Positions 32 to 10,259 of a stretch of DNA of 58,738 nt are shown in pieces. The stretch covers positions 1 through 58,738 of the forward strand of contig NZ_BJNZ01000029.1 in NCBI RefSeq assembly GCF_006539945.1, in the 5' to 3' direction. This DNA is from Cellulosimicrobium cellulans (GTDB lineage: Bacteria; Actinomycetota; Actinomycetes; Actinomycetales; Cellulomonadaceae). The notes below the pieces were generated by a model. The model saw only the letters and a program-made list of their open reading frames with translations. It had not been told where the DNA came from and searched no databases. The translations under genes and the position numbers were made by a program. Within the stretch, counting starts at the first letter, position 1. Every line of letters starts with the position of its first letter.

Positions 32-1453
32 GTGATCGTCGTCGCGACGCTCGCCTGGCTGCTCGTCGCCGTGCTCGCGCGCCGGTCGCCGGGAGTCCGG
101 TCCGCCGTGAGCACGGCGACGTCGACGCTGCTCGCCCTCGCGGGCGTCGGGGCGGTCGTCGTCGTGGTGGCCGTCGCCGCGGACGACGGCGGGACGCGGG
201 CGCTCGCCGCGCTCGCGAGCGTGCCCGTCGCGGTCGGCGTGGTCGCCGCCGGGACGTGGTGCGCGCGAGAGGTGGTCCGCCCGTGGACGGTGCGGCGGCG
301 CGATCGCGCGGCGGGCCGCGTCCCGTGGCAGGACCGCGTGCTCGTCGCCGCAGCCCGCACCGGGCCGCGCGTGCGGGGGGTGCGCGTCGCCGACGTCGCC
401 GCCCGCTCGGCGTTCCGCGTCGCCGGGGTCCGCGTCACGGGCCTCGCCGCCGAGATGTCGTACTACGGCCTCATCTCGCTCATCCCGCTGACGACCGCGA
501 TCGGGTCCAGCCTCGGCTTCCTGCGCCCGCTCCTCGGCGACGACACCGTCGACTCGATCCGCTCGTCGATCGTCGGCGGTCTCACCACGGTGTTCGCCGA
601 GCACGTGTCGACCTCCGTCGTCGCGCCGCTCGTCGACAGCCTGCTCGACGAGCAGCGCACCGGGTTCGCCGTCGGGTCGTTCCTCGTGGCGCTCTGGCTC
701 GCGAGCCGCGTCTTCCGCGCCGCGGTCCGCGCGCTGGACGACGCGTACGGCGTCGAGCGGCGCCGCGGTGTCGTGGCGCAGTACGTGCTCGGGGTCGCGC
801 TCGCCCTCGGCGCGATCGTCACGGCGGTGTCCGTCGTCGCGCTCGTCGTGGTCGGCCCGCTCCTGGGCGACGGTGCCGAACTGGCCGAGCGGCTCGGTCT
901 CGACGCGGCCTTCCGGCAGACGTGGGACGTGCTGCGCTGGCCGACGGTGGTGCTCGTGTGCGGCGCGTACCTCACGCTGCTCTACCGGTACGCGCCGAAC
1001 GTCGACACGACGTGGCGGCGGTGCCTGCCGGGCGCGGCCGTCGGGACCGGCGGCGTCCTGCTCGTGTCGTGGGGGTTCGGGCTCTACGTCCGGCTCGCGG
1101 GACCGGCGGCGCCGGGCTCCGGAGCGGGGACGACGGCGGTCGTCCAGGCGGCCGGGCAGATGCTCGGTCTCGTCCTCGCGGGGGTCCTCTGGGGCTGGCT
1201 CACGAGCATCGTCGTGCTCGTGGGCGGCGTCGTGAACGCGGAGGCCGACCCGTACCGCGTGGTCCCGGCGGGACGCGCCGCGGGTGGATCGTGGGTCGGC
1301 GGGGAGGGCATCGCCGTGACCAGCGCGAGCGCCGGACCCTTCGACGACCGCTCCCGCGGCACCGGCGCCGGCCGTGTGGGACGCGGCTCCTACGCTGACC
1401 TGCAGGACCACGGGCACGGTGCCCGCGACCGGACCGAGGAGGAGCCCGGGTGA
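32..1453 (+). CDS. YihY/BrkB-family inner membrane protein (5' end may lie outside the window)
   Basis: A polytopic membrane protein of the YihY/virulence factor BrkB family, whose biochemical role is unsettled (it was once mis-called RNase BN). Two hydrophobic segments near the N-terminus (about residues 1-15 and 30-75) precede the family core. The core starts near residue 133 with a GLAAEMSYYGLISLIPL-type segment, followed by several more helices (about 205-235, 250-280, 305-325, 340-360, 375-410) and a polar tail. The GTG used here is the first start in the window, but the frame stays open to the left edge, so the true start may be upstream. Its stop overlaps the next GTG by 4 nt (GTGA), so it is probably co-transcribed with the MoxR operon, although a functional link is not obvious. 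Family assignment is firm; role unknown. Confidence 0.85.
   Translation: MIVVATLAWLLVAVLARRSPGVRSAVSTATSTLLALAGVGAVVVVVAVAADDGGTRALAALASVPVAVGVVAAGTWCAREVVRPWTVRRRDRAAGRVPWQDRVLVAAARTGPRVRGVRVADVAARSAFRVAGVRVTGLAAEMSYYGLISLIPLTTAIGSSLGFLRPLLGDDTVDSIRSSIVGGLTTVFAEHVSTSVVAPLVDSLLDEQRTGFAVGSFLVALWLASRVFRAAVRALDDAYGVERRRGVVAQYVLGVALALGAIVTAVSVVALVVVGPLLGDGAELAERLGLDAAFRQTWDVLRWPTVVLVCGAYLTLLYRYAPNVDTTWRRCLPGAAVGTGGVLLVSWGFGLYVRLAGPAAPGSGAGTTAVVQAAGQMLGLVLAGVLWGWLTSIVVLVGGVVNAEADPYRVVPAGRAAGGSWVGGEGIAVTSASAGPFDDRSRGTGAGRVGRGSYADLQDHGHGARDRTEEEPG
1391..1396 (+). promoter_or_regulatory. Possible -10 element inside the yihY-like gene, upstream of the MoxR operon
   Basis: TACGCT matches the TANNNT -10 hexamer that recurs across this window. 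It would give a leader of about 45 nt carrying a strong GAGGAGGA ribosome-binding site ahead of the MoxR gene, letting the ATPase operon be transcribed without the yihY-like gene. No convincing -35 is visible, and the hexamer lies in coding sequence, so it may be chance. Confidence 0.3.
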
Positions 1454-2583
1454 CGAGCACGACGACCGGTGACGAGCAGGCGCCCGCGGCGCTCGAGGAG
1501 CTGCGACCGCCGGCAGAGGTCCGGTACGCCGACGAGCTCGCGGCGCTCGCGGACGCCGACGCCCGGCGCGGGGCCGACGTCCCGCCGGGCTGGCGCCTGA
1601 GCCCGCGCGCCGTGCGGGCGTTCGTCGTGGGCGACCGGGAGCTGGGCGTGAGCCGCAAGTTCTTCGGCGACGACCCGCTCGTCGACCGCGCGGTCGTGTC
1701 GCTGCTCGGCCGGCAGGGCCTCATGCTCGTCGGCGAGCCCGGCACGGCCAAGTCCCTGCTGTCCGAGCTGCTCGCGGCGGCCGCGAGCGGCACGTCGACC
1801 CTCACGGTGCAGGGCACCGCGGGCACGAGCGAGGACCACGTGCGCTACTCGTGGAACTACGCGCTGCTCATCGCCGAGGGGCCCAGCGAGCGCTCGCTCG
1901 TCCCGTCGCCGGTCTTCCGGGCCATGGAGAGCGGTCGCGTCGCGCGGTTCGAGGAGATCACGCGCTGCGCGCCCGAGATCCAGGACACGCTCGTGTCCGT
2001 GCTCTCGGAGAAGCAGCTCATGGTCCCCGAGCTCGGCGCCGACGCACGCGTCGCTGCCCGTCCCGGCTTCAACGTGCTCGCGACGGCGAACCTGCGCGAC
2101 CGCGGCGTCCACGAGATGTCGGCGGCGCTCAAGCGGCGCTTCAACTTCGAGACCGTCGCACCCATCCGCGACCGCGCGTTCGAGATGGAGCTCGTCGAGA
2201 GCCGCCTCACGGCCGAGCTCGGCCCGGCGCCGGAGCGCCCGCGGCTCGACCGCGACGTGCTCGAGGTGCTCGTCACGGTCTTCCAGGACCTGCGTACGGG
2301 CGCGACGGCGAGCGGCGCCCCGGTCAAGCGGCCCGAGACCGTGATGTCGACGGCCGAGGCCGTGAACGTCGCGGTGGCCGCGTCGCTCGAGGCGCGGTAC
2401 CTGGGTGACGGAACCGTGACCGCCGCCCAGGTCGCCCGTCAGGTGGGCGGCGTCGCGCTCAAGGGCGACGAGGAGGACGCGCGGCGGTTGCGGCACTACG
2501 TGGACAACGTCGTGCGGGAGCGCGCGCGGTCGGACGCACGCTGGAAGGACTTCCTCACCGCGGCGGGCGACCTGTGGCGGTAG
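1450..2583 (+). CDS. MoxR-type AAA+ ATPase (YehL-like)
   Basis: A 377-residue AAA+ ATPase of the MoxR/RavA group. These act as chaperone-like motors that remodel or activate partners, usually together with VWA-domain proteins. Visible motifs are Walker A GEPGTAKS (residues 95-102), a Walker B-like VARFEEI (164-170), sensor 1 ATAN (211-214) and a basic SAALKRRF segment after it that suits an arginine-finger region. The GTG start overlaps the upstream stop by 4 nt and is preceded by GAGGAGGA. It heads a run of four overlapping genes in the same order as E. coli yehL-yehM-yehP-yehQ, so it is probably the motor of a complex with the three following proteins. The molecular target is unknown. Fold and ATPase role are secure; pathway is not. 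Confidence 0.92.
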   Translation: MTSTTTGDEQAPAALEELRPPAEVRYADELAALADADARRGADVPPGWRLSPRAVRAFVVGDRELGVSRKFFGDDPLVDRAVVSLLGRQGLMLVGEPGTAKSLLSELLAAAASGTSTLTVQGTAGTSEDHVRYSWNYALLIAEGPSERSLVPSPVFRAMESGRVARFEEITRCAPEIQDTLVSVLSEKQLMVPELGADARVAARPGFNVLATANLRDRGVHEMSAALKRRFNFETVAPIRDRAFEMELVESRLTAELGPAPERPRLDRDVLEVLVTVFQDLRTGATASGAPVKRPETVMSTAEAVNVAVAASLEARYLGDGTVTAAQVARQVGGVALKGDEEDARRLRHYVDNVVRERARSDARWKDFLTAAGDLWR

Positions 2584-5072
2584 GCCTGCGTGCGGCGTGG
2601 GACGCCGCTCCGCCCCGGCTGCGGCAGGCGGCGCAGGACCTGGTGACCCTGCGGGAGCGCGGCGGCGTGCACCTGTTCGGCGTGCGCCACCACAGCCCGG
2701 CGTGCGCGGTCGCCATGGCCGCCCTGATCGACGAGGTGCGACCGGCGGTCGTGCTCGTCGAGGGTCCGGAGGAGTACACGCGGCTCCTGCCCGCGCTGCT
2801 CGACGAGCGCACGGTGCCGCCCGTCGCGGTCCTCAGCCTCGCCGGCGACCCGGCGGGGGGCGGCGCGCGCGGCGCGGGGTTCTATCCGCTCGCGCGCTAC
2901 TCGCCCGAGTGGGTCGCGCTCCGGGCGGGGCACGCCCTCGGCGCCGAGCTCGCGTTCGTCGACTCCCCGTGGGCGGCGCGGGTGCCGGGGGAGGACGACG
3001 ACCATGCGGACCCGGCGGCGCGCACCGTCCTCGCGGAGCGGCACCTCGCGCACTCGCGCACGGTCGCGCGGCTCGCGGAGCGGCTCGGGTGCCGCGACCA
3101 CGACGAGCTCTGGGACCACCTGTTCGAGGCGCGGGACACCGCGCGCCTGCGCGACTGGCGCGAGCTCACCGACGACGTGTTCGCGTGGGCGGCCCTCGCC
3201 CGCCTCGACTACGAGGACGAGGTGCTCGTCGCGGACGGGTCGCTCGACCGGGAGGCGCGGATGTCGGCGCGCGTCGCCGAGCACGCGGCGCGCGCCGACG
3301 GTCCGGTCGTCGTCGTGACGGGGGCGTTCCACACGCTCGCCCTCGTCGAGGCGCTGACCGGGAGCGCCCACGGTGAGGCCGTCGTCGCGCACCGCCCGGC
3401 GGGCGGGTACGGCGACCTGGCCGACGCCCCCGCGTGGCTCGTCCGGTACGACGACGAGCGGCTCGACGCGCTGCGCGGGTACGGCGCCGGCATGCCGACG
3501 CCCGGGTACTACGATCGGCTCTGGGCCGCGCACCACGACGCGGGCGGCCCCGCCGGCGCGGCGAACGGCGTCCTCGTGGACGTCGGGCGCGGGGCGAGCG
3601 CGCGCGGCGCGCTCGTGAGCGTCGCGCAGTCCCAGGCCGCCGTCGAGCACGCGCACCGGTTGGCCGCGCTGCGCGAGCGGCCGTGGCCGTGCCGCACCGA
3701 CCTGCTCGACGCCATCACGTCCTGCTACGTCAAGGACGCCGACGACCTCGACGCCGCGGGCGACCGGCCCCTCGGGCTCGCGGTCGCGGAGGTGTTCGCC
3801 GGGCGAGCGCTCGGCGACCTGCCGCCCGGGGGCGCGGCCCCGCCGCTCGTGGAGGAGGCGCGCTCGCGCGCACGGAGGCTGCGCCTGGACGTGTCCGACT
3901 CCGTGCCGCGCACCGTCCGGCTCGACGCGCGACGCAAGTCCGCGCACCGCGACCGGCGCCGGTTCCTCGCGCTGTGCGCGTTCCTCGACCTGGGGTTCGC
4001 GCGCCGCGTCTCCGGCCCGGACCACGTCGCCGGGCGCGGTCTCGGCCTCGTGCTCGAGGAGTGGGAGTACGCGTGGACGCCGCTCGTCGAGGCGCGGCTC
4101 GTCGAGCTCTCCCACCGGGGCGCGACGCTCGACGCGGTCGCCGTAGCGTTGCTCGACGACGCGCGCGACCGCGCGCGCGAGGAGCGGTCGAGCGACGCGG
4201 TGGCGCGGCTCGTCGCGCAGTGCGTCGTGGTGGGCCTGGCCGACCGGTTGCCTCCGCTCGTCGGTCTCGTCCGTTCCACGCTCGACGTCGACCCGTCTCT
4301 CGCCTCGGTGGTAGCAGGCATGCGGCGCCTCGTGGGGCTCTGGCGCGCCCGCACCGAGCTCGAGCTCGGCGAGCAGGCCGAGGCCCTGCTCGACCTTGCG
4401 GAGCAGGGGCTCGCCACCGCGGCGTACCTCGTGCCCGACCTCGCGGCCGCCGACGAGGCGACGCAGGACGACGCGTTGGCGAGCCTCGTCGCCCTGCGCT
4501 CCCTGGTCCGGGACCTGCGCGACGCGGGTCGTGACGGCACCGGCTCGGCGGCGGAGTCCGTCGCGCGGGCGCTCGAGCACGTGCGAGAGGACGACGGCGC
4601 GTCGCCCGCGGTGCGCGGCGCGCTCACGGCCTTCGCCGCCGTCGACGACGAGCTCGACGAGCCCGGCGGCAACGGTCTCGTCACGCGCGTGCGCGCCCGG
4701 CTCGCCCCCGGTGCGGACCCCGTGGCCGCGACGGCGTTCCTCAGCGGCGTGATGCGCGCCGCGCCCGACCTCCTGCTCCACACCCCCGAGATGTTCGACG
4801 CGGTCGACGACGGGCTGCGCGGCCTGGGCGAGGAGGCGTTCCGCGCGGTGCTGCCGGACCTGCGCCGGGCGTTCACCTGGCTGCGCCCGACGGAGACGCA
4901 CCGCCTCGCCGAGCGCGTCGCCGCGCGGACCGGCACGAGCGCCGCCGCGCTGGACCGGCACGTCGACGTGACGGAGGACGACCTCCGCACAGGGCTGCTC
5001 GTCGAGCGCGAGCTCGTCGCGGTCCTGGAGCGCGACGGCCTCGGCGCCTGGGCGCGTGGGGGAGCGTCGTGA
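2574..5072 (+). CDS. DUF5682 protein (YehM-like), N-terminal domain with TIKI/TraB-like motifs
   Basis: An 832-residue soluble protein of the DUF5682 family, counterpart of E. coli YehM. The GTG start lies 10 nt before the end of the MoxR gene, indicating translational coupling. The first 260 residues have a recognisable pattern: G-V-R-H at 36-39, LVEGPEE at 62-67, a SLDREARMSARV helix near 223-234 and G-A-F-H at 250-253. Two GxxH motifs with an intervening glutamate and an arginine helix are the signature of the TIKI/TraB/EreA/ChaN superfamily, so a metal-dependent hydrolase-like fold is suggested; this is inference. The remaining 570 residues are mostly alpha-helical and not recognised. It is expected to work with the MoxR ATPase, VWA and SWIM proteins beside it; no activity can be stated. 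Confidence 0.85.
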   Translation: MAVGLRAAWDAAPPRLRQAAQDLVTLRERGGVHLFGVRHHSPACAVAMAALIDEVRPAVVLVEGPEEYTRLLPALLDERTVPPVAVLSLAGDPAGGGARGAGFYPLARYSPEWVALRAGHALGAELAFVDSPWAARVPGEDDDHADPAARTVLAERHLAHSRTVARLAERLGCRDHDELWDHLFEARDTARLRDWRELTDDVFAWAALARLDYEDEVLVADGSLDREARMSARVAEHAARADGPVVVVTGAFHTLALVEALTGSAHGEAVVAHRPAGGYGDLADAPAWLVRYDDERLDALRGYGAGMPTPGYYDRLWAAHHDAGGPAGAANGVLVDVGRGASARGALVSVAQSQAAVEHAHRLAALRERPWPCRTDLLDAITSCYVKDADDLDAAGDRPLGLAVAEVFAGRALGDLPPGGAAPPLVEEARSRARRLRLDVSDSVPRTVRLDARRKSAHRDRRRFLALCAFLDLGFARRVSGPDHVAGRGLGLVLEEWEYAWTPLVEARLVELSHRGATLDAVAVALLDDARDRAREERSSDAVARLVAQCVVVGLADRLPPLVGLVRSTLDVDPSLASVVAGMRRLVGLWRARTELELGEQAEALLDLAEQGLATAAYLVPDLAAADEATQDDALASLVALRSLVRDLRDAGRDGTGSAAESVARALEHVREDDGASPAVRGALTAFAAVDDELDEPGGNGLVTRVRARLAPGADPVAATAFLSGVMRAAPDLLLHTPEMFDAVDDGLRGLGEEAFRAVLPDLRRAFTWLRPTETHRLAERVAARTGTSAAALDRHVDVTEDDLRTGLLVERELVAVLERDGLGAWARGGAS

Positions 5073-6313
5073 CGGCCGCCGGCGTGGGAACGGCGGACGT
5101 GCCGGACACGGCGCCGACCGGGACCCCACGTGCCGGGTTCGGGCCCGGCGCAGGCGAACCCGCCGGGAGCCGCGCGGACGATCAGGAGGCGGCGCGCCGG
5201 TGGCGGCTCGTGCTCGGCCGGTACGCGGGCGACACGTTGCCCGTCGCGCCGCAGGACCAGGGCCTCGACCGCACGCTCGGGCACCTGTACGACCGGGAGT
5301 ACACCGCACGTGGGCACCGGCACGGCGACGGCGACGACTCCCGTGCCGCGCGCGGCGGCGGGGGGCGCGGGGGTTCGGTCGTCGCGGGTCTGGACTGGCT
5401 CGAGTCGGCGCGCGAGCTGTTCCCGCGCGAGACGTTCGAGCGCATGCAGGTCGAGGCCGTGGGTCGCTACGGGATGACGGAGCTGCTCGCGGATCCGCGC
5501 GCCGTCGACGCGGTGGAGCCCAGCACGGAGCTGGCCTCGGCGCTGCTGCGTGCCCGGGGCCGGCTCGGGCCGGGCGTGCAGGACGGCCTGAAGCGGTTGG
5601 TCGCGCGCGTCGTGGAGGACGTCGTGCGGCGGCTGCGCCCCCGCTTCGAGACCGCCGTGGACGGCCGTCGCGACCGCACGCGCCGCTCGTTCGTGCGGTC
5701 GAGCCGCACGTTCGACGCGGCCGCGACCGTGCACGCGAACCTCGGGCGCTGGGACCCGGAACGGCGGAGGCTGCTCGTCACCGACCTCCGGTTCTCGGCG
5801 CGGCGCCGTCGCGCGCTGTCGTACGACGTGGTGCTGCTCGTCGACCAGTCCGGCTCGATGGCCTCCTCGGTGCTGTACAGCGCGGTGAGCGCCGGCATCC
5901 TCGCGGGGCTGCCCGGCATCACGGTGCGGCTCGTGCTGTTCGACACGTCCGTCGTCGACATGTCGCACCTCGCGCACGACCCCGTGACGGTGCTCCTCAC
6001 GGCTCAGCTCGGCGGCGGCACGGACATCGCGCGTGCGGTGCGCTACGCGGAGCAGCACGTGCGCGACCCGCGCCGGACCGTCGTCGCGCTCGTCACCGAC
6101 TTCGAGGAAGGTGGCTCCGTGTCGCAGCTCGTGGCGAGCGTCGGGCGGCTGCACGCGTCCGGCGTGCGGCTGCTCGGTCTCGCCGCCCTCGACGGTCAGG
6201 CGAGCCCCGCGTACGACCGCGGCGTCGCCCGGCGGCTCGCGGAGCAGGGCATGGAGATCGCGGCGCTCACCCCGGAGCGGTTCGCCGAGTGGCTGGGGGA
6301 GGTGCTCCCGTGA
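5069..6313 (+). CDS. VWA-domain protein (YehP-like)
   Basis: A 414-residue protein with a von Willebrand factor A domain in its C-terminal 165 residues. The metal-ion-dependent adhesion site is complete: D-Q-S-G-S at 259-263, the threonine of GGGTDI at 318 and the aspartate of LVTD at 344. It should therefore bind Mg2+ and use it to hold a ligand acid group. The N-terminal 250 residues are polar, with a basic helix-rich stretch (about 170-250). No signal peptide or membrane segment is seen, so it acts in the cytoplasm. GTG start overlaps the upstream stop by 4 nt. MoxR ATPases characteristically work with VWA proteins, and this is the obvious partner. It matches E. coli yehP in position and architecture. 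Confidence 0.9.
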   Translation: MTAAGVGTADVPDTAPTGTPRAGFGPGAGEPAGSRADDQEAARRWRLVLGRYAGDTLPVAPQDQGLDRTLGHLYDREYTARGHRHGDGDDSRAARGGGGRGGSVVAGLDWLESARELFPRETFERMQVEAVGRYGMTELLADPRAVDAVEPSTELASALLRARGRLGPGVQDGLKRLVARVVEDVVRRLRPRFETAVDGRRDRTRRSFVRSSRTFDAAATVHANLGRWDPERRRLLVTDLRFSARRRRALSYDVVLLVDQSGSMASSVLYSAVSAGILAGLPGITVRLVLFDTSVVDMSHLAHDPVTVLLTAQLGGGTDIARAVRYAEQHVRDPRRTVVALVTDFEEGGSVSQLVASVGRLHASGVRLLGLAALDGQASPAYDRGVARRLAEQGMEIAALTPERFAEWLGEVLP

Positions 6314-8565
6314 GCGGCACCACCGGGATCGGACCCTGGGCGGGCGTGTACGCCGGGTACGACGACGCCGCGCTCGCCACCCTCGCCAACGCCGGCCTGG
6401 TCCGTCGCGCGCGCAAGGACGTCGCCGCGGGCAAGGTCGAGGTGCTGGAACAGCGCGCCGACGGTGCCGTGCTGTCGGTCGGGGGCGCACGCGTCGAGCT
6501 GGACGCGCGTGGCCCCGCCGGCGTGCGGTGCGCGTGCCCGACGCCGGGTGCGTGCCAGCACGTCGTGGCCGCGTGCCTGTGGGCGCGCGACGCGGGGGCC
6601 GCGCCGGTGGAGGCGACGGCGGCCGAGCCGATGGAGCCGGTCGTGACGGTCCGTGAACGGACAGCGGCGGTGCGACCCACGGCGGACACTCCCGCCGATG
6701 CCGATGCCGATGCCGATCAAGCGGGTCGCGGTCGAGCCGCTGCTGGTTCCGCGAGTCCGGCAACGGGGCGCGCCGGGGCAGGCGCGCCGCCCGAGCCCGA
6801 CGCCGGCCCCCGCGCCGGGTCCATCGCCGATCCGCTGGGCGAGATCCTCGCGCTCGACCCGCGGGCGGTGCACCGGGCCGCCGGTGCCGCCGTCGTGCGC
6901 GCGGTCGCCCAGGAGAAGCGCGAGGGGGCTGAGGTGCCGGCGCGCGGCGGCTCGACGGACGTGTGGGTGGACGGTCCTCGCGTGGTGGTCTCCTGGCCCG
7001 ACGCCCCGCGCGTCACCTACGTCGCGGGGGCGGGATTCGTCGGCATGCTCGTCGAGCGCGAACGCGTTGCCTCCCCGACGGCGCGCGCGGCGGACGACCG
7101 ACGCTGGCGCCTGGAGGCGCTCGCACGGGTCTGGGACGCGCACGGCCGCGCCTGGCCGTGGCCCGAGGAGACCGCTGCCGCCGCGCCGCGCGCCGCCGGG
7201 GTGCCGGACGCCCGGACGGTCGCGGACGAGGTCGCGCGCGCCGTCGAGCGGGTGCTCGACGTCGGGCTCTCGCACCTCGGTCGCGACGACCTCGAGGAGC
7301 TGCGGGGCGCCGGGGTGCTCGCCCGGCTGGGCCGCCGGCCCGCGGTGCAACGACTCGTCACGTCCGCGGTCGGGCGGCTCGAGGCGCTCGCAGACCGTCG
7401 CGACGCCGTCGACGAGGAGGAGTGCCTGCTCGCGCTGGCAGAGCTCTGGGCGTACGTGCGGGCCGAGCCCGCGCCGGACGCTGCGGGGCCTGACGAGCGC
7501 CTGACGGACCTTCCGCACCTCCTCCCGCTCGGGGCGCGCTGGTGGGTCGCGGCGTCGGGCGCACGGGGCGTCACCGTGCACGTGTGGGACGTCGTCGAGG
7601 GCCGGGCGCGCGCGGTCACCACCGGACGGCCACCCGGCGCCGACCCCACGTTCCGCCGCTCGTGGGACCTCCCGCTCGTCTGGGGACGCTCGGTGGAGGC
7701 GCTGTGCCGCGGCCCGTTCGCCCTGCGCGGGGCGACTGAGCGCGCCGGGGCGCTCCGGCCCGGCGAGGGCCCGGTCGTGGAACCGTTCGGGACGCTGACC
7801 GCCGATGCGCTGCGCGACGTCGCCGAGCGGACTGCGGCGCCCGCCGCGCGGGCCGAGGTCGGGTTCGGGCGGAGGCCGGCCGTGGTGCGGGTGGTCATGG
7901 TCCGGGACGCGGGCCCCGTCGGGGTCGACGAGGTGGCGCAGGAGATCACCTGGACCCTCGTCGCGGCGGACGGCACGCCGACCGTCGTGCGCGTCGACGC
8001 GGCGGACGAGGCAGCCTGCGACACCCTGCTCGGGGTCGCGGCGGGGAGCCGTCGGCTCGTCGCCGTCGCGGTCGAGCACGACCTGGAGTCCGGCGGGGCC
8101 GAGGCCGTCGGTCTGTTCGTCGAGCGCCCCGGTGGAGGGCTCGGGCTCGTCGTGCCGACGCTCACGCCCGCGTACGACCACCGCACATGGTCGACCGCGT
8201 GGACGAGGCTCCGCGCGCGCGTCCGTGCGCTGCGGGGACGCGCGACGACGCACGTGCGCGAGGAGGTGGCGCCGTCGCCCGTCGAGGACGTGTGCGCCAC
8301 GGTGCTCGACGCCGCCGTGGCGCTCGCGGCGACCGGCCGTCGGCACCTCAGCCCGCGCCAGGGTGCCGCGCTGGCCCGCGCGGCGCGGACGGCGGACGAC
8401 CTCGGGGCCCCGACCCTCGCGGGTGCGGTCGCGCTCGTCGCCCACGAGGCCGACGCCGCGCGCCTGCTGCGGGCGGCGCTCGTCGCCTCGCGCGGGCGGG
8501 CCCTCGCGCGGGTCGTGGGCTCGTCCCGCGAGCCCCGGCCGGACCAGCGGGCGGTGCGCCCATGA
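6310..8565 (+). CDS. SWIM zinc-finger protein (YehQ-like)
   Basis: A 751-residue protein with an N-terminal SWIM zinc finger, C-A-C-x5-C-Q-H at residues 74-84, a module that binds DNA or protein. A low-complexity acidic/alanine linker (about 100-180) separates it from a long C-terminal region that is not recognised beyond resemblance to SWIM proteins of MoxR/VWA clusters. The frame is open well upstream, but the GTG at 6310 is chosen because it overlaps the VWA stop by 4 nt (GTGA) and places the zinc finger where the family has it. It corresponds to E. coli yehQ. The stop codon overlaps the ATG of the polymerase gene, so the two are translationally coupled. Confidence 0.85.
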   Translation: MSGTTGIGPWAGVYAGYDDAALATLANAGLVRRARKDVAAGKVEVLEQRADGAVLSVGGARVELDARGPAGVRCACPTPGACQHVVAACLWARDAGAAPVEATAAEPMEPVVTVRERTAAVRPTADTPADADADADQAGRGRAAAGSASPATGRAGAGAPPEPDAGPRAGSIADPLGEILALDPRAVHRAAGAAVVRAVAQEKREGAEVPARGGSTDVWVDGPRVVVSWPDAPRVTYVAGAGFVGMLVERERVASPTARAADDRRWRLEALARVWDAHGRAWPWPEETAAAAPRAAGVPDARTVADEVARAVERVLDVGLSHLGRDDLEELRGAGVLARLGRRPAVQRLVTSAVGRLEALADRRDAVDEEECLLALAELWAYVRAEPAPDAAGPDERLTDLPHLLPLGARWWVAASGARGVTVHVWDVVEGRARAVTTGRPPGADPTFRRSWDLPLVWGRSVEALCRGPFALRGATERAGALRPGEGPVVEPFGTLTADALRDVAERTAAPAARAEVGFGRRPAVVRVVMVRDAGPVGVDEVAQEITWTLVAADGTPTVVRVDAADEAACDTLLGVAAGSRRLVAVAVEHDLESGGAEAVGLFVERPGGGLGLVVPTLTPAYDHRTWSTAWTRLRARVRALRGRATTHVREEVAPSPVEDVCATVLDAAVALAATGRRHLSPRQGAALARAARTADDLGAPTLAGAVALVAHEADAARLLRAALVASRGRALARVVGSSREPRPDQRAVRP

Positions 8566-10259
8566 GCACCTACGCCGTCCACGTCGGGTCGCCCGAGCAC
8601 GGCCGGGTCGAGCACGTCGTCGACGGCCCGGCGGAGCCCGTCCGCGTGACGTGGGACGACACGAACCGCTGGTACCCACGCCTCCTCGCCGACGGCCGGC
8701 GCGTCGAGCGGTCGCACGACCTGCGCCTGTCCCACATCGTGCTGCGCCGCTCGCGGCTCGCGGCGGGATCGGCGCTCGCGTTGCGAGACCCCGGGCCGTG
8801 GGACGCGCTCGCCGCCGCCCCGGCCGGTCGTGAGCCCACGGCCTCGCCGCGTCCCGTCGGCCTGTTCGAGCTCGGGCCGCAGCACGCGCCGCGCGTCGAG
8901 CTCGACACGGTGGCGGAGCTGCGCGACCAGCTCGCCGCGGTCGCGGGCGCCGACGACTCGGACGGACCGGGACGGCTCCGCATGCTGCTCGCCGCCGAGT
9001 CGGCGGGGGCGCTCGTCGCCGCGGAGATGCACCACGCGGGCGTCCCGTGGCGCGCCGACGTGCACGACGCGATCCTCACGGACGCGCTCGGCCCGCGCCC
9101 GCGACCCGGCGAGCGCCCCGCGCTCATGGAGGACCTCGTGGCGCGCATCCGCGCGGCCCTCGACGCGCCGCCGACCCTCAACCCGGACTCGCACCCGGAC
9201 CTGCTGAAGGCGCTCCAGTACGCGGGTGTGGGCGTGCGGTCGCTGCGCAAGTGGGAGCTGGAGCGGACGGACCACCCCGTCGTCGAGCCCCTGCTCGAGT
9301 ACAAGAAGCTCTCGCGGCTCCTCACGGCGAACGGCTGGGCGTGGCTCGACACCTGGGTCCGCGACGGTCGGTTCCGCACCGAGTACGTCGTGGGCGGCGT
9401 CGTCACGGGCCGGTGGTCGTCGAGCGGTGGCGGGGCGCTCCAGCTTCCCAAGCAGGTGCGCCGCGCGGTCGTCGCCGACCCGGGCTGGAGGCTCGTCGTC
9501 GCGGACGCCGCGCAGCTCGAGCCGCGCGTGCTGGCCGGGCTCGCGCACGACGAGCGCATGGCGGCGGCGGGGCGCGGCGGCGACATGTATGCCGGCATCG
9601 TCGCGTCGGGCGCCGTCGCGACGCGCGACCACGCGAAGGTCGGCATGCTCGGCGCCATGTACGGGGGTACGACGGGCGACAGCGCGCTCGTCCTGCCGCG
9701 GCTCGCGAAGGCGTTCCCCGACGCGATCGGCCTCGTGGAGCGTGCCGCGCAGGCCGGCGAGCGCGGCGAGGTCGTGTCGACCCTCCTCGGCCGCGGCTCG
9801 CCACGACCCGGCGAGTCGTGGCATGCGGCCCAGGAGGGTGCCTACGCGGTCGAGGAGGGCGGCGCGGTCGACGTCGAGGGCGGCCGGACGGGCGCGGACG
9901 CGCAGGCGCGCGCCCGGTCGTACACCCGCGCGTGGGGCCGGTTCACGCGGAACTTCGTCGTGCAGGGCACGGCGGCCGAGTGGGCGCTGTGCTGGCTCGC
10001 CTCGATCCGTCGTCGGCTGTGGGACCTGCCCGTGGCGTCGACCCCGGGCGCCGCGCCCGCGCCGTTCGCCGACCGGGCGCACCTCGTGTTCTTCCTCCAC
10101 GACGAGGTCGTCGTGCACGCGCCGGCCGAGCTCGCCGAGGCGGTGGCCGACGAGGTCCGCGCGGCGGCGACGGAGGCAGGGCGCCTCCTGTTCGGGGAGT
10201 TCCCGGTCGACTTCCCGCTCACCGTCGCCGTCGTCGACCACTATGCCGAGGCGAAGTGA
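8562..10259 (+). CDS. Stand-alone family A DNA polymerase (Pol I-like, no recognisable exonuclease site)
   Basis: A protein of about 565 residues with the polymerase half of DNA polymerase I. Motif A is VADAAQLEPR (313-322), with the catalytic Asp at 315 and Glu at 320. A TGRWSSSGGGALQLPK template-contact segment lies at 282-297, the O-helix is R355...K359...Y367, and motif C is HDE at 512-514. The N-terminal 250 residues correspond in place to the 3'-5' exonuclease domain but show no DxE acid pair, and there is no 5' nuclease domain. Motif A departs from the usual DYSQIELR. Databases often label such actinobacterial proteins bifunctional 3'-5' exonuclease/DNA polymerase. The ATG sits inside the SWIM gene stop (ATGA). 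A repair or translesion role is plausible but inferred. Confidence 0.85.
   Translation: MSTYAVHVGSPEHGRVEHVVDGPAEPVRVTWDDTNRWYPRLLADGRRVERSHDLRLSHIVLRRSRLAAGSALALRDPGPWDALAAAPAGREPTASPRPVGLFELGPQHAPRVELDTVAELRDQLAAVAGADDSDGPGRLRMLLAAESAGALVAAEMHHAGVPWRADVHDAILTDALGPRPRPGERPALMEDLVARIRAALDAPPTLNPDSHPDLLKALQYAGVGVRSLRKWELERTDHPVVEPLLEYKKLSRLLTANGWAWLDTWVRDGRFRTEYVVGGVVTGRWSSSGGGALQLPKQVRRAVVADPGWRLVVADAAQLEPRVLAGLAHDERMAAAGRGGDMYAGIVASGAVATRDHAKVGMLGAMYGGTTGDSALVLPRLAKAFPDAIGLVERAAQAGERGEVVSTLLGRGSPRPGESWHAAQEGAYAVEEGGAVDVEGGRTGADAQARARSYTRAWGRFTRNFVVQGTAAEWALCWLASIRRRLWDLPVASTPGAAPAPFADRAHLVFFLHDEVVVHAPAELAEAVADEVRAAATEAGRLLFGEFPVDFPLTVAVVDHYAEAK

Follow-up and report, generated by a model that had tools for sequence, protein, structure and literature searches.

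The YehL-M-P-Q operon of Cellulosimicrobium cellulans: part of a conserved five-gene set with a Tiki-like domain, beside a resident family A DNA polymerase

We analysed a stretch of 58,738 nucleotides (nt) from Cellulosimicrobium cellulans (contig NZ_BJNZ01000029.1 of RefSeq assembly GCF_006539945.1; hereafter the window), which is one whole contig, its left end being the contig end. Close to that end stand five open reading frames on the forward strand, encoding a MoxR-type AAA+ ATPase, a DUF5682 protein, a VWA protein, a SWIM protein and a family A DNA polymerase. As the initial annotation reported, the five genes overlap start-to-stop, by 10, 4, 4 and 4 nt; overlaps of 4 nt are common locally, and of 381 same-strand pairs of adjacent genes outside the set, 47 show one. 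That annotation further proposed that the five products together form a DNA repair, replication-rescue or anti-phage machine. Below we show that the first four genes belong to a conserved set whose remaining member stands upstream in relatives, that the polymerase is a resident of the site, and that the DUF5682 protein has an N-terminus resembling Tiki/TraB hydrolases.

The ATPase (P0001; 1450..2583) matches AAA_5 (PF07728, 126.5 bits) and carries the Walker A motif GEPGTAKS at residue 95, a motif present in 27/27 MoxR proteins compared, and FEEITR at residue 167. The DUF5682 protein (P0002; 2574..5072) matches PF18934 with 346.9 bits. The VWA protein (P0003; 5069..6313) is of the CoxE type (VWA_CoxE, PF05762, 151.1 bits) and its metal ion-dependent adhesion site (MIDAS) motif, DQSGSM (residues 259-264; 5843..5860), is kept in 27/27 VWA proteins compared. 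No Pfam model matched the window's own SWIM protein (P0004; 6310..8565), which is assigned by its YehQ profile match; PF04434 is matched by 26 of the 36 aligned members, and each residue of the SWIM metal-binding motif C74-x-C76...C82-x-H84 (6529..6561) is at least 90% conserved across those 36 sequences. The polymerase (P0005; 8562..10259) belongs to NF011538 (702 bits; cut-off 389) and also matches PF00476 (72 bits).

The likeness of the first four genes to Escherichia coli yehLMPQ, noted initially from gene order, was confirmed by homology for each product. By blastp, the MoxR protein is 50% identical to YehL, the DUF5682 protein 28% to YehM and the VWA protein 42% to YehP; the SWIM protein is 27% identical to YehQ over 98 residues, with a profile E-value of 2.8e-14. 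The matches to YehL, YehM and YehP have E-values of 6.9e-121, 2.7e-84 and 3.2e-119. In relatives, the upstream gene encodes a protein of ~1,200-1,290 residues with DUF4132 and HEAT repeats that matches YehI (E = 3.2e-41). In the four congeners whose operon could be read (L039-L042), this gene always stands at the operon's 5' end. Since the left edge of the window is the contig end, its counterpart would lie outside the window. The full set is five genes (DUF4132/YehI, MoxR/YehL, DUF5682/YehM, VWA/YehP and SWIM/YehQ), of which the window holds four. In E. coli K-12 (L079; yehI-yehK-yehL-yehM-yehP-yehQ) the five homologues follow one another in the order found in the window's kin. The differences are a YehK-like gene, which is not among the called genes of the window-family operons (gene calls in the compared loci were made with a simple codon-based script), a BrkB-type gene that some members of the window's genus have between DUF4132 and MoxR, and the polymerase that follows in the window's clade.

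The set is also as widespread as had been supposed. A scan with a DUF5682 alignment, one genome per species, gave at least 591 stretches (at least 576 relatives), of which the best 80 were taken; because these are ranked by likeness to the query, they are not an even sample. Neighbours were counted in the 62 of these whose flanks reach at least 4.5 kb each way; among them, MoxR accompanies DUF5682 in 60, VWA in 60, SWIM in 58, DUF4132 in 54 and the polymerase in 2, and all of DUF4132, MoxR, VWA and SWIM are present in 54. By their record titles, DUF5682 loci come from Actinomycetota, Pseudomonadota, Planctomycetota, Verrucomicrobiota, Bacillota and others. The order MoxR-DUF5682-VWA holds in 68 of the 70 loci having all three; of the exceptions, that in L160 is artefactual, caused by a long open frame, and L106 has VWA and SWIM upstream. 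The set is near-universal in E. coli, being found (at ≥80% coverage) in 5162 of 5426 genomes, with 5320 of 5322 places chromosomal. Passages in PMC10652928 indicate that the block is absent from the viable, genome-reduced E. coli strain DGF-298, and hence that the set is dispensable there. A coarse look for other recurrent neighbours singled out none; the top clusters inspected resembled shadow frames of core genes. Two DUF5682 genes (L127 and L155) have no MoxR, VWA or SWIM gene nearby, and their neighbours are unrelated.

Another DUF5682 subtype stands in a second architecture, in the order SWIM (~440 residues), DUF5691, MoxR, DUF5682, VWA. The SWIM and DUF5691 assignments were confirmed with Pfam in L165, L169, L170, L175 and L204, and one of the five DUF5691 proteins gave a weak HEAT match, below the cut-off. 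As MoxR, DUF5682 and VWA proteins recur in both architectures, these three form the constant core; the DUF5691 architecture thereby shows which parts are constant and which are swapped. In L201, on the reading of open frames alone, similar proteins are encoded divergently from the other three.

To place the polymerase, its distribution was compared with that of DUF5682. In a sample of 197 genomes of the class, NF011538 scores above cut-off in 63 and DUF5682 is found in 42. Crossing the tables gives 33 genomes with both, and the two are adjacent only in the window's own; in the other 32, they are on the same contig ~80 kb or more apart (14 genomes) or on different contigs (18 genomes, in a few of which, such as G182 and G401 near contig ends, contig breaks might hide neighbours). 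Of 111 genomes of the window's family, the polymerase occurs in 100 and DUF5682 in 34. Of these 34, 21 have the polymerase within 8 kb on the same contig and strand, 12 have it apart, and in one (G531) contig ends cut both genes. The 21 neighbour loci span four genera: g1, the window's own (5), g298 (7), g282 (7) and g278 (2).

Neighbourhood in 21 of the 34 family genomes with DUF5682 is what would be expected were the polymerase a fifth subunit, with the MoxR, DUF5682, VWA and SWIM proteins, of a machine for DNA repair or replication rescue, and the 4-nt overlap that joins it to the SWIM gene is present in 5/5 unbroken loci of the window's genus. The overlap part of the original claim stands for that genus; outside it, the join opens into gaps of 81-4665 nt. 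Among the 21, the distance from the SWIM gene to the polymerase is -4 nt in 5 loci (all in the window's genus), 81-114 nt in 4 and 639-4665 nt in 12, and 12 of the 21 are interrupted by other called genes, often foreign. In the L043-L045/L048 group the intervening gene is carbonic-anhydrase-like; L050 has five genes there and L052 one small call, and in L053-L058 genes lie on the opposite strand, with DUF222 in L053. In five family loci (L069-L073) the set stands at another place, with no polymerase beside it. By comparison, the 4-nt overlap between the VWA and SWIM genes is kept in 26/26 operons compared, these five included. The polymerase is thus found mostly away from the set, the outcome that the initial annotation had named in advance as refuting its proposal: it adjoins the set in 1 of the 33 class genomes that have both, in 2 of 62 well-flanked loci (both within the window's family) and in 21 of 100 polymerase-bearing family genomes. 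We reject the polymerase as a component of the set on this distribution, which largely refutes the fifth-subunit reading and leaves it very improbable. The proposed repair, replication-rescue or anti-phage machine falls with that membership and is not supported.

The constancy of the polymerase is to its own locus. All nine genomes of the window's genus have it, whilst the set is present in six and missing in three. In those three congeners (L059, L060 and L061) the locus reads AceE, DUF3052, peroxiredoxin, polymerase, NIF3, and the same flanks are found in several other genera without the operon at this site (e.g. L083, L084, L090 and L094; not so in L081, L085 and L086). The polymerase is therefore a resident of a conserved locus (AceE-DUF3052-peroxiredoxin ... 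polymerase-NIF3) that, in one clade, also houses the set; because the polymerase is kept when the set is missing, we regard it as a separate neighbour. In a quick tree built from joined MoxR, DUF5682 and VWA sequences, in which several forks are unresolved, the operons at the polymerase site group together; nested among them are three g289 operons that occupy another site, and L069 and L071 fall outside the group. The tree needs at least two changes of site, so a single arrival at the polymerase site followed by later moves and losses is enough to account for it.

A weaker form of partnership would be recruitment at the level of the clade, with the polymerase brought under operon control in this family as part of a common stress response, not of one complex. 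The exact 4-nt overlap in the unbroken loci of the window's genus makes co-transcription with the operon probable there; same-strand gaps of 81-114 nt in L046, L047, L049 and L051 would be compatible with recruitment, as would the one large tree group of operons at the site, which also includes the three g289 operons. The opposite-strand genes, the carbonic-anhydrase-like gene and the five genes of L050 that intervene between set and polymerase argue the other way, and we consider recruitment unlikely.

In the polymerase itself, the catalytic residues (D315, E320, R355, K359, Y367, D514 and E515) do not vary among 15 aligned polymerases, and the position of the E. coli O-helix phenylalanine, which we take to be residue 762, is L363 here and leucine in all 15. 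In the N-terminal part, at the level of a sequence test, no exonuclease model matched and no DxE motif is conserved among the 15, single acidic residues being conserved. Given the missing domain match and DxE motif, the polymerase likely lacks 3'-5' exonuclease activity, and its earlier description as exonuclease-less is likely right. It shares the polymerase catalytic residues with the NF011538 proteins of Actinomycetota, a family whose name says bifunctional 3'-5' exonuclease but in which DxE is not conserved across the N-terminal part of the 15 aligned. Among NF011538 members, adjacency to the YehL-Q set is confined to the window's and sister lineages.

A role in defence against phage was considered separately. 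Passages in PMC10910872 class ternary MoxR-vWA systems of another kind as conflict systems, and within the window's family the set has a patchy distribution (34/111), as a defence system might have. PADLOC, however, gave no convincing full-length match for the five proteins, only weak or domain-level ones, the best being that of the polymerase to the PolA domain of the RTasPolA model (3e-11). The bpMoxR model (PF20030) scored 22.7 bits, below its cut-off of 27, and so the operon does not qualify as a MoxR-vWA-beta-propeller ternary system. The set is moreover near-universal and chromosomal in E. coli and occupies conserved chromosomal sites in the window's family. We rejected the anti-phage reading on these grounds as highly unlikely.

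Links to the DNA-damage response were also considered. The exact actinobacterial LexA-type box, GAAC-N4-GTTC, occurs at 5 sites in the 828,342 bases scanned and at none upstream of a set gene, several loci starting at or near the DUF4132 start so that the upstream region is not always in view. In a single genome, one site (L055:6985) precedes the polymerase by 105 nt. SOS control of the set in the window's clade was rejected on the absence of such boxes before the set genes scanned, an absence that also argues against the polymerase as fifth subunit. The literature offers that reading some weak encouragement through other DUF4132 genes: in passages of the respective papers, DRA0166, a DUF4132 gene, is placed in the DdrO response (PMC8533742), molR, another, appears in SOS lists (PMC3978071), and the yehF transcript is mildly up in the SOS response (PMC11002266). 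In these passages, none of the links involves MoxR, DUF5682, VWA or SWIM. In the E. coli K-12 stretch, a LexA-like site, CTGGATAAAATTACAG (L079:4450-4465), ends 9 nt before yehF, upstream of yehI-Q; LexA-like sites in that stretch are within chance (11 observed versus 7.1 expected).

We turn to the DUF5682 protein, which had been called a possible hydrolase. Its residues 30-261 (2661..3356) resemble the Tiki/TraB superfamily, a likeness that comes from this analysis. Across 44 DUF5682 members, R38, H39, H40, E63, P65, S110, P111, E112, D130, E185, R210, R226, G250 and H253 are invariant, and E227 is kept in 43. When the DUF5682 profile was compared using hhalign with three PrgY/TraB proteins, the match reached 90.7% over 196 columns (90.3% on repetition), whilst 60 column-shuffled controls gave at most 4.2% and unrelated alignments 0.2-0.95%. 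Passages in PMC6254334 describe the active site of Tiki enzymes as two histidines and two glutamates; H39, H40, E63, E112 and H253 (44/44) and E227 (43/44) could supply these, although which of them corresponds to which Tiki active-site residue can be proposed only by inference. The features shared with Tiki/TraB/PrgY are an N-terminal His motif, a Glu after the second strand, a Glu before the last strand and a terminal G-x-x-H, the last of these (G250...H253) being present in 44/44. The DUF5682 protein differs from these hydrolases in its ~550 extra residues, its P/G-x-R-H-H first motif and its setting in a MoxR operon. Amongst Pfam families, PF01963 is matched by one of the 44 members (1e-4) and PF04187 (ChaN, of the Tiki superfamily) is touched by five, with a best E of 0.034; the window's own DUF5682 protein matches neither. 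A search with both models over 98 genomes of the class gave no match, and the PF04187 search was uninformative, its controls being silent too. We take this N-terminal region to be a domain of the Tiki type; judged by profile likeness, the suggestion of a hydrolase is strengthened from possible to probable.

This domain suggests how the set might work. Known MoxR-VWA pairs are chaperones or maturation factors for protein complexes (passages in PMC3893208), and in RavA-ViaA and other such pairs the same passages have a MoxR AAA+ ATPase encoded beside a MIDAS-bearing VWA protein, as here. They also place YehL in a separate MoxR subfamily, and the present pair differs from RavA-ViaA in being encoded with DUF5682, SWIM and DUF4132 proteins. 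A MoxR ring with its VWA partner would use ATP to remodel a client protein; the HEAT-repeat DUF4132 protein and the SWIM protein would select the client; and hydrolysis of a peptide or ester bond in that client would fall to the Tiki-like domain of DUF5682, through H39, E63, E112, E227 and H253. The polymerase, on a shared transcript in the window's genus, would do gap-filling work of its own. On balance we think it probable, by a modest margin of belief, that the five-gene set is an ATP-driven hydrolase machine with exchangeable targeting parts and that the polymerase is a separate resident neighbour. A broader proposal is more tentative, and we put it forward as less than even in likelihood: the YehI-L-M-P-Q set and its DUF5691 sister may both descend, as separate branches, within a single and so far unrecognised type of ATP-dependent hydrolase, in which a MoxR ring and VWA adaptor would work a Tiki-fold DUF5682 protein while a HEAT scaffold (DUF4132 or DUF5691) and a SWIM protein choose the substrate.

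The same MoxR-VWA precedents would also suit a chaperone that matures a cofactor enzyme, DUF5682 then being a handler of a cofactor or metal, of the ChaN kind and without catalytic activity. The CoxE type of the VWA protein and the five DUF5682 members that touch PF04187 are in line with this. In the coarse look at neighbours, however, no client enzyme recurs beside the set, and the His and Glu residues of the Tiki core are kept in 44/44, as expected of a catalytic site. We hold this explanation to be possible but somewhat unlikely, and prefer the ATP-driven hydrolase because a Tiki-type domain is encoded between a MoxR and a VWA protein, whose pairs act as chaperones.

Several observations weigh against the preferred hydrolase reading. 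A broader TraB alignment reached only 36.7%, covering the first motif alone, and E. coli YbaP as the lone comparison 0.8%; the three-sequence PrgY/TraB alignment that gave 91% was picked from the broader set after these weaker results. The first motif is P-x-R-H in 26 of the 44 members, G-x-R-H in 14, begins with A in 2 and is a gap in 2, and so departs from a strict GxxH. The DUF5682 profile found no solved structure, Tiki or other, beyond one chance-like match (E = 0.22); sequence searches for solved structures of the SWIM and VWA proteins likewise found none. As to the polymerase, its persistence next to the operon in four genera gives some support for a link, since selection might likewise account for it. 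The other neighbour at the locus, NIF3, has likewise persisted next to the polymerase, and plain synteny is therefore enough for the adjacency. Finally, our survey of the open-access literature, with subscription papers and preprints outside its scope, found no function for the yehL-Q genes, whose names appear only in lists among the matches listed; DUF5682 is unmentioned there, and MoxR is paired with neither DUF4132 nor a SWIM zinc finger.

The overlapping run in the window begins one gene earlier than was first described, with a BrkB/YihY-type membrane protein (32..1453, forward strand; PF03631, 138 bits) whose gene overlaps the MoxR start by 4 nt. It lies outside the conserved set: L039 and L042 have a BrkB-type gene between DUF4132 and MoxR, whereas L040, L041 and the other genera have none at that position. 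In two congeners without the set, the BrkB/YihY-type gene remains ahead of the polymerase.

These results remove a false lead, that of a repair machine containing the polymerase, and put a testable one in its place. A Tiki-type hydrolase domain in YehM would provide the first concrete residues to test for the yehL-Q genes. If the proposal is true, a hydrolase of this kind would span several phyla and be present in nearly every E. coli.

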